NCBI RefSeq assembly: GCF_035621475.1
Contig: NZ_CP141799.1
Span: 1-64,000, forward strand
Direction: 5' to 3'
DNA length: 64,000 nucleotides
Source: Pseudomonas paeninsulae
GTDB lineage: Bacteria; Pseudomonadota; Gammaproteobacteria; Pseudomonadales; Pseudomonadaceae
The notes beneath the pieces were generated by a model. That model saw only the letters and a program-made list of their open reading frames with translations. It did not search any database and had not been told where the DNA came from. Position numbers and translations under genes: made by a program. This document shows, piece after piece, positions 6,321 to 12,150 of this stretch. The stretch's first letter is position 1, and the number at the start of each line of letters is the position of its first letter.

Positions 6321-6810
6321 AGATCAGCCGGTTACGAGTAGCTTGAAAGCGATACTTGGGAGTGAGATGTAGCTACGCTCGGGCGCTGCCCGAGTGCTCG
6401 GAAATCTCGTCTTTGTGCGCACAGAAATGTACGGAATTGAGCGATGTGGATCCGGATGCCAATTTGGATCAATGAAAATAGCATCGCCCATCAGCCGTCT
6501 GAATCCGCTGATGGGCGAGGTAATGCAGCACGCTTTTGTGCCGTTGACCTTTGCCCTCGGCGGGGCGTAAAACACCTGGCAGTTATCTGGGGTGGCACGC
6601 TCGGTGGTTTCAAACCGGGCGATTAATGCAGACGAGGCGGCTCGCGCGGCAGTTCGCATAACGGCGCCTATGTTCAATAGCGCCCCTAGCTAGACCTTGG
6701 CGCGGTGGTAGGGCACCAGATACGGGGGCAATGGTTCAGCAATCCTGGCCGGTCGGCGTCGGTTGCCGCGCAGAGGATTCGGTTTGCAAAAAGTCGGCGG
6801 CCCTGCCATC
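6321..6810. other. Intergenic stretch with no convincing gene
   Basis: No gene is well supported here. A minus-strand open frame of 117 codons (6324-6677) has no motif I recognise and no visible ribosome site. A small stem CTCGGGC/GCCCGAG lies at 6378-6394. The stretch separates the conserved gyrB end from the accessory relBE/helicase segment, so it may be a junction of transferred DNA. Confidence 0.4.
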
Positions 6811-6830
6811 GTAATGACGAATGTCATTAC
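6811..6830. promoter_or_regulatory. Palindromic operator of relBE
   Basis: GTAATGAC, spacer GAAT, GTCATTAC: a perfect inverted repeat with 8-bp arms, ending 10 bases before the first possible antitoxin start codon. Antitoxins with a ribbon-helix-helix fold repress their own operon from such palindromes, so this is the likely RelB/RelBE operator. Confidence 0.75.
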
Positions 6831-6840
6831 AGTGAGGGCT

Positions 6841-7086
6841 ATGGCCATGGCTTCGATCAATATCCGTGTCGACGACGAGCTGAAAGCCCGCGCTTACCGC
6901 GAGCTGGAACGCCTCGGCGTGACCCCGTCCGAACTGATGCGCCAAGCCTTGCAGTATGTCGCCGAGCGCGGCCAGTTGCCCTTTCGCCCGGTACTGATGA
7001 CCGAGGAAGACGAGGTCTTGATCGCCACCGTGCGCGACCGCCTGGCCGCACCCCAGCGCGTGAAGGTGGCGCTGGATGACCTATAG
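6841..7086 (+). CDS. relB: RelB/DinJ-family antitoxin
   Basis: Ribbon-helix-helix antitoxin that should neutralise the toxin encoded next to it and repress the operon. Beginning MAMASINIRVDDELKARAY, its first 45 residues carry the RelB/DinJ pattern: a beta strand INIRVDD, then helices with LERLGVTPSELMRQAL. The C-terminal half would wrap the toxin. ATG at 6841 or 6847 is preferred over the longer upstream frame, because the palindromic operator ends just before and GAGGG lies upstream. The toxin start lies inside its last codons (11-base overlap), so synthesis is coupled. Confidence 0.88.
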   Translation: MAMASINIRVDDELKARAYRELERLGVTPSELMRQALQYVAERGQLPFRPVLMTEEDEVLIATVRDRLAAPQRVKVALDDL

Positions 7087-7363
7087 CCTGGAATTCGATG
7101 CGCGGGCACTGAAGGAATGGCACAAGCTGGGTGATATCGTTCGCCAGCAGCTGAAGAACAAGCTCGCGGAGATACTGCTCAACCCGCGCATTGAGGCTAA
7201 CCGTCTGCATACGCTGCCCGACTGTTACAAGATCAAGCTGCGCAGCAGTGGCTATCGGTTGGTGTACCAGGTGATCGACCATGAGGTGCTGGTGTTTGTG
7301 GTGGCGATTGATCGCCGTGAGCGTGAGCAGGCCTACCGCAAGGCTGCCGAACGTTTCAAATAA
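7076..7363 (+). CDS. relE: RelE/ParE-superfamily toxin
   Basis: Toxin of the type II pair with the preceding antitoxin; RelE proteins cleave mRNA in the ribosomal A site. The 95-residue protein shows the family pattern: YSLEFDARALKEWHKL at the start, NPRIEANRLHTLPDCYKIKLR in the middle and GYRLVYQV...VFVVAIDRRER at the end. These provide the basic and aromatic residues (R, K, Y, R) used by RelE nucleases. It overlaps the antitoxin gene by 11 bases. The exact activity (RelE mRNase against ParE gyrase poison) is inferred; the sequence looks more RelE-like. Confidence 0.88.
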   Translation: MTYSLEFDARALKEWHKLGDIVRQQLKNKLAEILLNPRIEANRLHTLPDCYKIKLRSSGYRLVYQVIDHEVLVFVVAIDRREREQAYRKAAERFK

Positions 7364-7416: not shown

Positions 7417-9804
7417 ATGAGTGATACTGATCTGCTGGGGTATTTACAGGTCGAAAATGCCCGCTTGATCGCTCTGTTGCAATCGCATGGCATTGAGTGG
7501 CGTTTGCCTGCCGAGTCATCGCAAGCTGAACCGGCGAGCCCACCGCCACTGTTAAGTTCGAGTCTCGATACGGATGCCAAGCTGGCGCTGTTCAAGCGAT
7601 TGTTCCGGGGCCGAGCCGATGTGTATCCCATGCGCTGGGAAAGCAAGGCCGGTAAAGCAGGCTACTCGCCCGCTTGCGGCAATGAATGGCGACCGGGTGT
7701 GTGCGAGAAGCCACGGATCAAATGTGGGGACTGCTCGTACCGTCAGCTCATGCCGCTGACCGATCAGGTGCTCTATAAGCACCTGGCCGGCGAGATTGTC
7801 ATCGGCGTTTATCCCTTGCTGCCAGATGACAGCTGCTACTTTCTGGCGGTGGATTTTGACGAAGCCGATTGGCGCGCGGATGTCACGGCTTTCGCTCAGT
7901 CATGCCGTGAGTTGGGCGTGCCCGTGGCATTGGAAATATCCCGCTCAGGCAACGGTGCGCATGCCTGGGTTTTCTTTGAGCGCAATGTCCCCGCCTATGA
8001 GGCGCGCCTGCTTGGCGCAGCAATCATCAGCCATACCTGCGAGCGTACCCGGCAACTGACGTTGGGGTCATATGACCGGCTTTTCCCAAATCAGGACAGC
8101 ATGCCCAAAGGCGGCTTTGGCAACTTGATTGCCCTGCCCTTGCAGAAGCGAGCCCGCTCGCTTGGAGGCAGTGTTTTTGTCGATGAGACGCTGACGCCCT
8201 ATCCCGACCAGTGGGCATTTCTGGCCAGTATTCAGCCTATGCCTGTGCAGGACATTGCGCCGACAACCCTGCGGGCCACTGGCGCTCGCCATCCATTGGA
8301 TGTCACCGCAGTGGCGGATGACGATGAGCTGAAACCCTGGCATCGCACACCGGCAAAGACTCAGAAATTGGCGTGTGCGCTGCCCGCATCAGTGAACGTG
8401 ACCCTGGCCAACCAGATCTATTTCGACAAGTCGGAACTGCCCCAGCCATTGGTCAACAAGCTCATTCGGTTGGCGGCTTTTCAGAATCCGGAGTTTTACA
8501 AGGCACAGGCTATGCGCATGTCCGTGTGGAATACGGCGCGGATCATCGGTTGTGCCGAAAACTTTCCTCAGCATATTGCTGTGCCGCGTGGTTGCCTGGA
8601 TGACGTGCGGACGTTATTGCATGGCAACGGGATTGAGCTGCTGCTGCGCGATGAGCGCTTCGCAGGAGCGCCCATCGATGTCCGCTTTGCGGGCACGCTA
8701 CGCCCGGATCAAGAGGCTGCTCTCGAAGGCATGTTGGTGCACGACACCGGCGTCCTTTATGCGCCAACCGCTTTTGGAAAAACCGTCACGGCTGCCGCAT
8801 TGATTGCCCGGCGCGGTGTGAACACACTGGTGCTGGTGCATCGGACGGAGTTGCTTCAGCAGTGGAAGGAGCGGTTGCAGGCTTTTCTGGATGCAGACAA
8901 AACGACGGTCGGCAGCATCGGCGGTGGTAAGGCCAAGCCGACAGGTATCATCGATGTTGCCGTGATGCAGTCATTGTCGCGACAGGGCGACGTCAGTGAG
9001 CAGGTGAAAAACTACGGGCAAATCATCGTGGATGAATGTCACCACCTGTCAGCTTTTTCGTTCGAGGCCATCCTCAAGGCCGCTGGTGCTAAATATGTGT
9101 TGGGCCTGACCGCTACGCCAGTACGTCGTGATGGTCAGCAGCCGATCATCTTTATGCAGTGCGGGCCCATTCGACATACAGCGACCAGGCCCGAGAGTGC
9201 TCCAGCTGATCTGGTCGTGATGCCGCAGTGGCTGTCTCGACCGATAGTCATGCCTGAAGGGGCAGGCATCCAAGATGTCTTCTTGCAGGTGTGCAGCGAC
9301 ACGGAGCGAACAGCCAAGATTGTTGCTGAGGTCGGAGACGCTTTCGACCAGGGACGGAAGATCCTGGTGCTGACTGAGCGAACGGATCACCTCCGTGCCA
9401 TTGAGGAGCAGTTGGTTGGTCGGGTCGAGAATCTGTTCACCCTGCATGGGCGGCTGTCCAAGAAGCAACGCGTCATACTAATCGGCGGGCTGGAAGCGTT
9501 AGCACCTGATGCACCGCGGGTGATCTTGGCAACCGGGAAATTGGTTGGCGAGGGGTTTGATCACCCGGCACTGGATACCCTGGTTCTGGCTATGCCGGTT
9601 TCCTGGAAGGGCACTCTCCAGCAGTATGCGGGTCGCCTGCACCGGGAGCATGCGAGTAAGGCTGATGTGCGCATCATCGACTTAATCGATGCCGGACATC
9701 CTGCTTTGCTCCGTATGTGGAGCAAACGCCAAGCGGGTTACAAGGCTATGGGGTATCGATTTGCTGATTCGTCCAGCTCAATGGAGCTGCTGGGAAAGGA
9801 CTAA
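7417..9804 (+). CDS. Archaeo-eukaryotic primase-SF2 helicase fusion
   Basis: A 795-residue two-enzyme protein. The N-terminal half resembles the archaeo-eukaryotic primase domain associated with TOTE-type conflict systems. It has a Cys4 cluster (C87, C96, C103, C106), a catalytic D-x-D in FLAVDFDEADW (D146, D148) and the SGNGAHAWVFF histidine motif (H182). The C-terminal half is a superfamily 2 helicase with a Walker A variant TAFGKT (451-456), DECH box (539-542), GLTATP, and motif VI QQYAGRLHR. It lies just downstream of relBE in the insert between gyrB and plsC. A role in defence or in repair of invading or damaged DNA is inferred. No partner nuclease is adjacent. Confidence 0.8.
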   Translation: MSDTDLLGYLQVENARLIALLQSHGIEWRLPAESSQAEPASPPPLLSSSLDTDAKLALFKRLFRGRADVYPMRWESKAGKAGYSPACGNEWRPGVCEKPRIKCGDCSYRQLMPLTDQVLYKHLAGEIVIGVYPLLPDDSCYFLAVDFDEADWRADVTAFAQSCRELGVPVALEISRSGNGAHAWVFFERNVPAYEARLLGAAIISHTCERTRQLTLGSYDRLFPNQDSMPKGGFGNLIALPLQKRARSLGGSVFVDETLTPYPDQWAFLASIQPMPVQDIAPTTLRATGARHPLDVTAVADDDELKPWHRTPAKTQKLACALPASVNVTLANQIYFDKSELPQPLVNKLIRLAAFQNPEFYKAQAMRMSVWNTARIIGCAENFPQHIAVPRGCLDDVRTLLHGNGIELLLRDERFAGAPIDVRFAGTLRPDQEAALEGMLVHDTGVLYAPTAFGKTVTAAALIARRGVNTLVLVHRTELLQQWKERLQAFLDADKTTVGSIGGGKAKPTGIIDVAVMQSLSRQGDVSEQVKNYGQIIVDECHHLSAFSFEAILKAAGAKYVLGLTATPVRRDGQQPIIFMQCGPIRHTATRPESAPADLVVMPQWLSRPIVMPEGAGIQDVFLQVCSDTERTAKIVAEVGDAFDQGRKILVLTERTDHLRAIEEQLVGRVENLFTLHGRLSKKQRVILIGGLEALAPDAPRVILATGKLVGEGFDHPALDTLVLAMPVSWKGTLQQYAGRLHREHASKADVRIIDLIDAGHPALLRMWSKRQAGYKAMGYRFADSSSSMELLGKD

Positions 9805-9949
9805 CGAGTCCTAGCTTACGCACCAAGCTTTTCATCCGTAGCAGTTGGAAAAGGCGGCTGTTTCCAGCTGGGTGGATTCGCAGTAACGCCGTAGCAAGCC
9901 GTGATTAACCGGAGATGACTGACCTGCTAAAGATGGAGAGGCCAGAAAG

Positions 9950-10297
9950 CACTGAGGGGAGCCGATGGCTCCCCTCTAATAATTAATGCGTGCTTTGTTT
10001 TTCTTGTTTAGCGATCTGTTGTTGTTATTAGTGATCGGCAGCTTGTTCATCAGATCCCCAGGAGGAATCAAGGGCAAACGTATTTTTTTGGTTGCTGGTA
10101 CTGCCATTGTCACTAAGTGATCCAACCAGAGCGGGCTACCTCAAGGTAGTTTTATTCTTCTAAGCTTGGCTGCCGGTTCAGAGTCCCGGAAAAGCGTACC
10201 CTCTCCAAAAAAATCTGTTTGCTACTTCTCTGCGGTTTTGTTGTTGTTATGCCAGAGTCGAGATGTTTTTCTTTTTGCTATTTTTGTTGTTGTTCTG
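9950..10297 (-). ncRNA. Candidate CrcZ/CrcY-type regulatory RNA
   Basis: No protein gene fits here, but the minus strand reads like a CrcZ-family RNA. The predicted 5' end begins GCAGAACAACAACAAAAA. There are three long A/C tracts (near 10281-10294, 10235-10250 and 10017-10030) with the AACAACAA pattern bound by Hfq/Crc, plus weaker ones such as AACAAGAAAAACAAAG near 9996-10011. The length of about 345 nucleotides matches the family, and a perfect hairpin closes the 3' end. A consensus sigma-54 promoter and a CbrB-like inverted repeat lie upstream. CrcZ itself normally lies beside cbrB, so this would be an additional copy, like CrcY or CrcX. Its role would be to sequester Hfq/Crc and relieve catabolite repression. 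Confidence 0.75.
9954..9976. terminator. Perfect hairpin, likely shared terminator
   Basis: GAGGGGAGCC, loop GAT, GGCTCCCCTC: 10-bp perfect arms. On the plus strand it lies about 150 bases after the helicase gene; on the minus strand it is the 3' end of the candidate regulatory RNA. Neither side has a strong T run (TAATAATTAA on one side, AGTGCTTTCT on the other), so efficiency is uncertain. Confidence 0.55.
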
Positions 10298-10307
10298 CCA
10301 TTGATAT

Positions 10308-10323
10308 TGCACAGCTCGTGCCA
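10308..10323 (-). promoter_or_regulatory. Sigma-54 promoter of the candidate RNA
   Basis: Minus strand TGGCACG-AGCTG-TGCA matches the RpoN consensus TGGCACG-N4-TTGC, with GG and GC elements 12 bases apart as required for the -24/-12 positions. Transcription would start about 12 bases downstream, near 10297. RpoN promoters need an enhancer-binding activator; see the inverted repeat at 10418-10444. Confidence 0.85.
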
Positions 10324-10417
10324 GATTTAAAATATCCTTATAAATCAACATATTGGTAAATTATCGATTTATTTGCCAGGTAGCGTGTGGCTGATCTGTT
10401 TCCGTACCACTCAGTTA

Positions 10418-10444
10418 CGTTACCTGTGGATGGCGGTCGTAACA
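10418..10444. promoter_or_regulatory. CbrB-like activator site (inverted repeat)
   Basis: CGTTAC, 15 bases, GTAACA: an inverted repeat close to the TGTTAC-N15-GTAACA pattern I recall for CbrB sites (11 of 12 positions). It is centred about 134 bases upstream of the predicted RNA start, a typical enhancer distance for a sigma-54 promoter. A further GTTAC lies at 10414-10418. Confidence 0.6.
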
Positions 10445-11013
10445 CCGGACGCTCGGCCGCCAGTGTTGGGCGGTGTCACTCAGGGCGATTGATCGTCGGA
10501 CGAGCAATCGGTTGGGCTATAGCGGTGGTGTAGCCGAGCGAACAAACCGCCTGTAGGAACCTGCCGCCAGTCAGGCAATCCAACAGGTCAAGCAGGAGAA
10601 CCACGCCGCTGGAATCGCCTGGGTCAAGCCGATGATCCCCTCCCCCCCAAGTAATCTTTCGTACAGTGGCGTGTCCTGGCCGGAGACAGGATAAAAGACG
10701 TCGCCTACAGGAATGCGTGGGGTTGCAGCGAACGACAGGATAACGATGACCGCTGAGCGTGCTTATGACGCAGCCAACCTGGGGCTAAAGATGTTGGCCG
10801 TGGGTTCAACCGCCCAGATGAACCGGGCCATAGCCGCTGCTCGGAGTTGGGCCGTGGTTATGAGTCGCTAGGGCCTCACCGTGGCCAAGCAGGTAAGCGC
10901 CAATCCGCAAGCAGTCCATCAAACAATTACAACTACAAAGCACACCGCTTAAGTCGACCTGAGGGTTGATCCTGACCCGCAGCATCAGGCAAGGCGTTAG
11001 GCATGGGATTTCT
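10445..11013. other. Non-coding stretch, possibly decayed DNA
   Basis: Nothing is well supported. A short frame at 10746-10871 (41 codons, beginning MTAERAYDAANLGLKMLAV) has no recognisable family and could be a remnant. A C8 run occurs near 10642. The promoter of the following BCCT-like gene should lie in the last 100 bases. Confidence 0.35.
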
Positions 11014-12150
11014 ATGAATATTATTTTGTCCGGCGCGATTATCACGCTGTTGCTCATCACCCTGTTTGTCCTGATGCGCTGGGGTAATCAGCGCTGTCAT
11101 GGCTCTGAGCCTGTGGGGTTGTTGACCTTCATGGCCATCCTGTTTACCTCGGGCCTGGACATGGGCCTGATCATATTTCCGCTGACCGAGTTCCCGGTCT
11201 ACGCCAAGGATGCGGAATATCAATTCTCCAACCCATTGGCTGTTGAGTTTGGCTTCTGGGGCTTTCTGATTTGGGTGTTTTACTTCATCACCACCTTTTA
11301 CTTCTGTGTGATCGAGCCACGGGTGAAGTTCTTCGAACTGAAACCGGTGAAGATCATCAATAATTTGGTGATCATCTCGACCTGCGCCTTCACGGCTTAC
11401 CTGTTCCTGGTGAATATCGCCTGGTATGCACCGGAAGTTGGCGAAGCCTGGGGTTACCTAGTGGTCTTCCTGATTCTGTTGGCGGCGGTTTATTCGAGCA
11501 CCGACCTCAAGTACCTGAAGATCTTGAGCGTGGCCTCGACCTGGTTGTTCTTCGCCCTGATTGCCGGGATGTGGTGGCTGATGGATGCCGATGCAGGCTA
11601 TGTGGCCGAGGCGGCTTCGGCGATCGGCACCGGCTATTTCGCCGAGCTGCATGAATTTGTCCTGCCGCTGAGCGACTACCACGCCTTCTACCTGTTCTGG
11701 TGGTTTGCCTGGAGCGTGATGATTGGCCAGTTCGTGTCGCGCTTTGTCGGCGGCCTGAAGACCTATCAACTGCTGCTGGCACTGCTGATCATCCCGTCCA
11801 TTCCGTTGGCGATATGGTTTGCCGTGCTGTACTACTACTTCGCCAACGCCATTGAGATCACCCTGCTGTTGAAGCTGGCGATGGTCACGGTGGGGATTAT
11901 CTTCGTGATCAATTCGGTCGATTCGCTGGTGCGCTTGTACACCGACAATCTGGGGATCAAGGTCGAGAAACTGGGGCGGCCGAAGTTCATTTTGCTCAAC
12001 GTGAGTGTGCTAGCCGCCTTGGTCCTGCTGTTCAAATTCACCCCGTTCGAAATTCAGTCGGTAGGGCTGGTGGTTATTGCCCTGTATGCCGCGGCCATCG
12101 CGACCATCATGTGGCGGCATCGTCCGGCGTTGGCGTCGATCAATAGCTGA
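11014..12150 (+). CDS. Short BCCT-like membrane transporter
   Basis: Integral membrane protein of 378 residues with about 10 hydrophobic segments. FTSGLDMGLIIFPLTEFP near residue 45 resembles the Gly-rich GMGIGLMFWGVAEP motif of betaine/choline/carnitine transporters. HAFYLFWWFAWSVMIGQF near residue 225 resembles their signature tryptophan-rich segment. Typical BCCT carriers exceed 500 residues, so this is a divergent or compact member. The start at 11014 fits the first hydrophobic helix. A choline-type substrate is suggested by the family and by the choline-sulfate genes elsewhere in the window, but the two loci are 20 kb apart. Substrate unknown. Confidence 0.6.
   Translation: MNIILSGAIITLLLITLFVLMRWGNQRCHGSEPVGLLTFMAILFTSGLDMGLIIFPLTEFPVYAKDAEYQFSNPLAVEFGFWGFLIWVFYFITTFYFCVIEPRVKFFELKPVKIINNLVIISTCAFTAYLFLVNIAWYAPEVGEAWGYLVVFLILLAAVYSSTDLKYLKILSVASTWLFFALIAGMWWLMDADAGYVAEAASAIGTGYFAELHEFVLPLSDYHAFYLFWWFAWSVMIGQFVSRFVGGLKTYQLLLALLIIPSIPLAIWFAVLYYYFANAIEITLLLKLAMVTVGIIFVINSVDSLVRLYTDNLGIKVEKLGRPKFILLNVSVLAALVLLFKFTPFEIQSVGLVVIALYAAAIATIMWRHRPALASINS

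Follow-up and report, generated by a model that had tools for sequence, protein, structure and literature searches.

A gyrB-linked branch of the CrcZ RNA family in Pseudomonas, and candidate CbrB-driven decoy RNAs in other families of the order

A gene-free stretch near gyrB in the window, by which we mean the whole 64-kb piece of Pseudomonas paeninsulae DNA that was analysed, raises the question of whether it encodes a CrcZ-like regulatory RNA in addition to the standard one, and whether this would be a new location for such an RNA. A preliminary description had proposed an RNA of CrcZ/CrcY type here, and comparison with the Rfam CrcZ model bears this out: a scan of the whole window at Rfam gathering cut-offs returns a single match, to RF01675, with E = 9.8e-68 and a score well above the gathering cut-off of 95 bits (Table 1). 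The elements of that description are all found where it placed them, on the minus strand. Its inverted repeat CGTTAC-N15-GTAACA, which is a plus-strand reading, corresponds to TGTTAC at 10444-10439 followed after 15 nt by GTAACG at 10423-10418, its RpoN promoter is present as CTGGCACGAGCTGTGC and its perfect hairpin is also there, while its RNA start near 10297 agrees with both the promoter spacing and the start of the Rfam model at 10296. It had counted three long A/C tracts; A/C tracts are indeed present, but the number of AAN tracts we find is six. To the elements already noted we add a third CbrB-type subsite (R2) and an IHF-like site.

Table 1 Features of the gyrB-linked RNA locus in the window
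Feature	Position	Strand	Basis or remark
CrcZ-family small RNA, gyrB-linked branch	9929..10296	minus	Rfam RF01675, 247.6 bits, full model 1-398
CbrB-type subsite F1, TGTTAC	10439..10444	minus	perfect match to the F subsite in the available part of PMC6296734
CbrB-type subsite R1, GTAACG	10418..10423	minus	5/6 match, 21 bp from F1
CbrB-type subsite R2, GAAACA	10397..10402	minus	5/6 match, 21 bp from R1
IHF-like site CAATATGTTGATT	10343..10355	minus	sequence match
Sigma-54 promoter CTGGCACGAGCTGTGC (GG-N10-GC)	10309..10324	minus	sequence match
First three AAN tracts, candidate Hfq distal-face sites	10238..10294	minus	RNA positions 3, 21, 49
Fourth AAN tract, AAGAATAA	10152..10159	minus	RNA position 138
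Last two AAN tracts	9995..10029	minus	RNA positions 268, 289
Perfect 10-bp hairpin GAGGGGAGCC-ATC-GGCTCCCCTC near the RNA 3′ end	9954..9976	minus	sequence; helix 5 of the alignment

The sequence of the window RNA thus contains the several AAN (CA-rich) tracts for Hfq that are expected of the family; dinucleotide shuffles average 0.95 such tracts, and six were reached in none of 1000. The hairpin is probably a terminator or a 3′ stabiliser. In an alignment of 26 RNAs its helix is paired in 99.1% of the cells, with two of its nine pairs changed on both sides, but no long T run follows it in the window sequence, so that the 3′ end given here for the RNA is provisional.

According to the available part of PMC6296734, CbrB sites comprise one forward subsite (TGTTAC) and two reverse subsites (GTAACA) with centres 20-25 bp apart, accompanied by IHF and a GG-N10-GC sigma-54 promoter. 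The same arrangement of CbrB subsites, IHF-like site and sigma-54 promoter lies upstream of the window RNA, in the form of sequence matches. The IHF-like site was recognised by its likeness to the IHF consensus. A composite CbrB/sigma-54 pattern (TGTTAC, 12-18 nt, GTAAC, 80-110 nt, TGGCAY-N6-TGC) has exactly three matches in the 5,351,178-base genome, each followed after 12-13 nt by a CrcZ-family RNA; a reversed control pattern has none there. The composite promoter pattern is specific enough to find CrcZ-like RNA candidates from sequence alone.

The three CrcZ-family genes of this genome score 353 bits (beside cbrAB), 248 bits (the gyrB-linked copy) and 214 bits (G000:C1:256120-256486, corresponding to L034:6121-6487). 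The first of these is the standard crcZ, which the preliminary description had left to be looked for and which is found next to cbrAB. The additional copy that it suspected is therefore present beyond crcZ, yet the genome holds another unusual copy as well, in the neighbourhood of a BCCT transporter, a LysR gene and a DddD-like CoA-transferase with two domains. DddD acts in DMSP cleavage. A firmer name than DddD-like was considered for the transferase and dropped, as no NCBIfam model scores above its cut-off for this neighbour and its PDB matches are generic class III CoA-transferases; among the best 120 of 1994 homologues, the nearer ones are named only CoA transferase, and one that is 53% identical is named DddD. 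An RNA related to this third copy is found near the transferase, the BCCT transporter or both in four other genomes. The genome also encodes CbrAB, Hfq and Crc, the last with 4jg3, a catabolite repression control protein, as its best PDB match (E 1.5e-161).

All 59 genus genomes searched, including the present one, carry one to three CrcZ-family copies each, 118 in total. Among the 42 copies that were read in context, including that of the window, gyrB surroundings were seen for the window copy and for one other, in P. marincola; the gyrB address differs from the shared addresses observed in this set, namely cbrB and what we take to be the CrcY locus and the CrcX locus. A 2013 survey of Crc RNAs by Filiatrault et al. 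is said to have distinguished three subfamilies. At the CrcY locus of one genome, two CrcZ-family RNAs stand in tandem (L051:5464-6372). The gyrB-linked copies were gathered from a DNA search of 398 genus genomes (392 with some match), from fetched stretches and from a pattern scan of named genomes, by which part of the loci were found and which gave 22 stretches, a CrcZ-family RNA being present in 15. In 12 genomes of 11 species a copy lies at the gyrB-acyltransferase locus, a figure that represents a search yield and no census: P. paeninsulae (the window), CC6-YY-74 (same species label), P. tumuqii, P. borbori, sp1636, a MAG, G069, P. benzenivorans, P. taeanensis, G260, P. marincola and P. 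guineae. The location that the preliminary description had called new is thus unusual, but it is not peculiar to one genome. On 11 of the 12 stretches gyrB itself is seen; the P. borbori contig ends before it, leaving the acyltransferase side only, and the stretches of sp1636 and P. guineae show the gyrB side alone. Each of the 13 genomes tested among the carriers of a gyrB- or DddD-linked copy also has a CrcZ-family copy next to a cbrB homologue (P. guineae lay outside this test). In P. borbori, two weaker CrcZ pieces at a contig end probably belong to the same locus.

The distance from gyrB to the RNA ranges from 222 to 6395 bp, and the presence of a ParE-like toxin, a TOTE-type primase-helicase and other genes around the RNA varies. 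In the window, a ParE-like toxin gene (by Pfam) and an ORF upstream of it occupy 6763-7363 and lie between gyrB and the RNA in some relatives but not in others, and a TOTE-type archaeo-eukaryotic primase plus helicase protein is encoded at 7417-9804; the latter is nearly full length in P. borbori and fragmentary in P. tumuqii and G260, and several relatives have no match to it. On the other side of the RNA, 10966-12150 encodes a protein of 394 residues that is membrane-like by eye, is kept near the RNA in several relatives and has a partial BCCT match below the cut-off. Regulation of this adjacent BCCT-like gene by the RNA was considered and dropped, as the sequence before the gene's start makes no clear case for it. 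Phage and plasmid records searched with the locus gave no match, and so there is no sign of a mobile carrier in those records. In CC6-YY-74 (L125:7655-9760), two copies (98%) of a 227-bp stretch with the CbrB sites of the RNA flank ORFs that are transposase-like by eye, and the second set of upstream sites lacks an RNA.

Within the 12 gyrB-linked loci, TGGCAY-N6-TGC is found in every case (in 10 if a pyrimidine is required before TGGCA), as is the IHF-like site (strict at 11 loci, relaxed at one), and each of the 12 RNAs has 5-6 AAN tracts. For the alignment of 26 chosen RNAs, the structure of which came partly from the alignment's own fold, pairing in the named helices amounts to 96.7% of cells compared to at most 57% in slid controls, and ten base pairs changed on both sides compared to 4.4 in shuffles, which retain the relatedness of the RNAs. 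Further pair types showed no excess over the shuffles, 77 of 500 of which reached the observed value.

In a tree of 65 RNAs over 399 columns, rooted at the midpoint, the 12 gyrB-linked RNAs group together (94/82), and so do five RNAs of the third-locus type (100/96), four of which have the DddD-like transferase at their loci and the fifth (G185) only the BCCT transporter. The two groups form one branch (100/98), which adjoins CrcY/CrcX (97/91 for the larger group) and stands apart from cbrB-linked crcZ. The RNAs of the CrcY, CrcX and crcZ loci do not form a single clade in any of the three cases, and two rows, Z_L036 and GYR_L037, have long end branches. The gyrB-linked RNA is a real, lineage-conserved branch of the known CrcZ family, and its gyrB address is new. 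It resembles CrcZ (RF01675, beside cbrB) in its sequence/structure model, its AAN tracts and its CbrB/sigma-54 promoter, but it differs from CrcZ proper in lying beside gyrB, in its shorter 5′ part and in falling outside the crcZ branch. CrcY (P. putida, A. vinelandii) and CrcX (P. syringae) constitute the nearest group in the tree and have the T-rich/A-rich core helix in common with it, whereas the window RNA has other neighbours, sits beside rather than inside their branch, in the company of the DddD-linked RNAs, and has a promoter triple nearer to the crcZ type than to that of CrcY. The RNAs RsmX/Y/Z and CsrB have a different protein partner and a different binding motif. Like the window RNA in its proposed role, they are multi-site sponge RNAs under two-component control (for RsmX/Y/Z, see the available part of PMC8871633). 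The tree also contains a further CrcZ-family branch (100/100) at other addresses (L073, L076, L077, L088 and L094), the hosts of which are P. linyingensis, Pseudomonas sp. A-1 and a Stutzerimonas record. With the gyrB- and DddD-linked copies, the RNAs governing how strongly pseudomonads exert catabolite repression gain two addresses and a distinct branch, so that models counting only CrcZ, CrcY and CrcX would be incomplete for the lineage.

At the level of sequence, family membership, promoter anatomy, conservation and the presence of cbrAB, hfq and crc are established, and the window RNA is very probably a functional decoy RNA of the Crc family. By analogy with the family mechanism, as described in the available parts of PMC4063720, PMC6296734 and PMC8871633, we infer that it is transcribed, induced through CbrB and sigma-54, and bound by Hfq/Crc, with the physiological role of a sponge for these proteins. 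When good carbon sources are exhausted, phosphorylated CbrB would bind the three upstream subsites, and IHF would bend the DNA, helping CbrB to activate the sigma-54 polymerase at 10324-10309. The resulting RNA of ~370 nt would present six AAN tracts, any of which the distal face of Hfq might bind, and could titrate Hfq, together with Crc, off mRNAs, so that catabolite repression is relieved. In its own lineage it would provide a further dose of RNA beside crcZ, a role held by CrcY in other pseudomonads.

This last point leads to the question of whether the gyrB-linked RNA is simply the lineage's CrcY, that is, one ancestral second copy whose address differs by lineage (CrcY locus, CrcX locus, gyrB or DddD-like gene), and no extra regulator. 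We consider this a serious contender, with somewhat less than an even chance of being right. The grouping of gyrB- and DddD-linked RNAs with CrcY/CrcX, apart from crcZ, in the midpoint-rooted tree speaks for it, as does the finding that nine of the ten other gyrB-copy genomes searched have no CrcZ-family gene beyond the cbrB-linked one. However, the genome of the window and its conspecific CC6-YY-74 both hold a DddD-linked copy besides the gyrB-linked one, and copies have therefore been added at least once. As regards the gyrB copy itself, the present comparison fits a moved CrcY and a separate duplication equally.

One could also speculate that the RNA belongs to the family and would nevertheless have a partly separate task, for instance as a differently timed sponge, which on the sequence features at hand we regard as rather unlikely. 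The F1-R1-R2 triple, with at most three mismatches, is found in 11 of the 12 gyrB-linked promoters (P. guineae fails) and 15 of 15 crcZ promoters, compared to 4 of 19 at the CrcY locus, and the closure of the long helix (alignment columns 108:274) is A-U in 16 of 17 gyrB/DddD-linked RNAs and unpaired in 8 of 9 others. The base of this closure is, however, shared by 4 of 20 CrcY-locus RNAs and by 5 of 7 classed as 'other', and it is contained in a pattern through which some of the loci were themselves found. That the copy is instead a redundant or decaying duplicate of little effect, kept by chance, would agree with its Rfam score being below that of the cbrB-linked copy, but seems very improbable given that the RNA is retained throughout the 12 genomes despite rearranged neighbouring DNA, with promoter and AAN tracts preserved. 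A functional Crc-family decoy thus remains our preferred reading of the window RNA.

The composite site is not restricted to the genus. Among 95 relatives, it is present in all 59 genus genomes and in 10 of 36 from other families, and in the order as a whole in 39 of 145 genomes; 34 of the 140 genomes outside the family have it, and these belong to 20 of 46 other families in the sample. Beyond the order, a single genome among 182 carries a composite site, which lacks tracts, and the reversed control pattern matched no genome in the own-genome, relatives, order and outside-order scans. The 34 genomes outside the family hold 39 sites, of which 34 were read: a cbrB homologue (49-65% identity; 16 families) precedes 30 of them, and at least two AAN tracts follow within 300 nt at 33, the first of these tracts beginning 12-16 nt past the promoter in 24. 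Measured against 200 shuffles per site, the tract count was equalled by at most 10 shuffles at 27 of the 34 sites and by 11 to 21 at the other 7. Two genus sites that do not coincide with CrcZ matches (L189, L190) have no AAN tracts. Among the loci outside the family that an Rfam scan covered, none reached the CrcZ cut-off, and there were several weak matches, the best at 54.7 against 95 bits. Halioglobus and Pseudohaliea are among the matches listed for one CbrB homologue (best 120 of 5710), with a Halioglobus pacificus protein at 69% identity to the CbrB homologue of G400. Outside the family, the top Crc homologues of 19 of 20 genomes have 28-46% identity and are inseparable from exonuclease III relatives, and we therefore refrain from claiming Crc for these genomes.

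The window RNA probably belongs to a far broader class. On this likely reading, decoy RNAs with AAN tracts and a CbrB/sigma-54 drive would follow cbrB homologues in 16 or more other families (with the site in 20) while staying below the Rfam CrcZ cut-off; the CbrAB-decoy circuit would be widespread, and perhaps ancestral, in the order rather than an invention of Pseudomonadaceae, and Pseudomonas would tune its dose through copies at lineage-specific addresses, such as gyrB and the DddD-like gene. The available part of a 2022 review (PMC8871633) calls CbrAB unique to Pseudomonadaceae, so that the CbrB-decoy arrangement is seen here where that text puts none. Because the arrangement occurs outside this family, the origin of CbrB-decoy regulation and the minimal RNA become directly testable. 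A literature search on CrcZ, CrcY and CbrAB, with subscription papers outside its coverage, gave no recognised report of these RNAs among the matches listed. A metatranscriptome of a deep-ocean community includes cbrA and cbrB transcripts, CrcZ being unmentioned in the available part of the paper (PMC5073097), and these transcripts fit a wider spread of CbrAB. Three genomes outside the family have composite sites in tandem, and the RNA candidates at L186-L188 and L191-L218 (longer stretches L179-L185) are in some cases ~100 nt by appearance and in some cases tandem.
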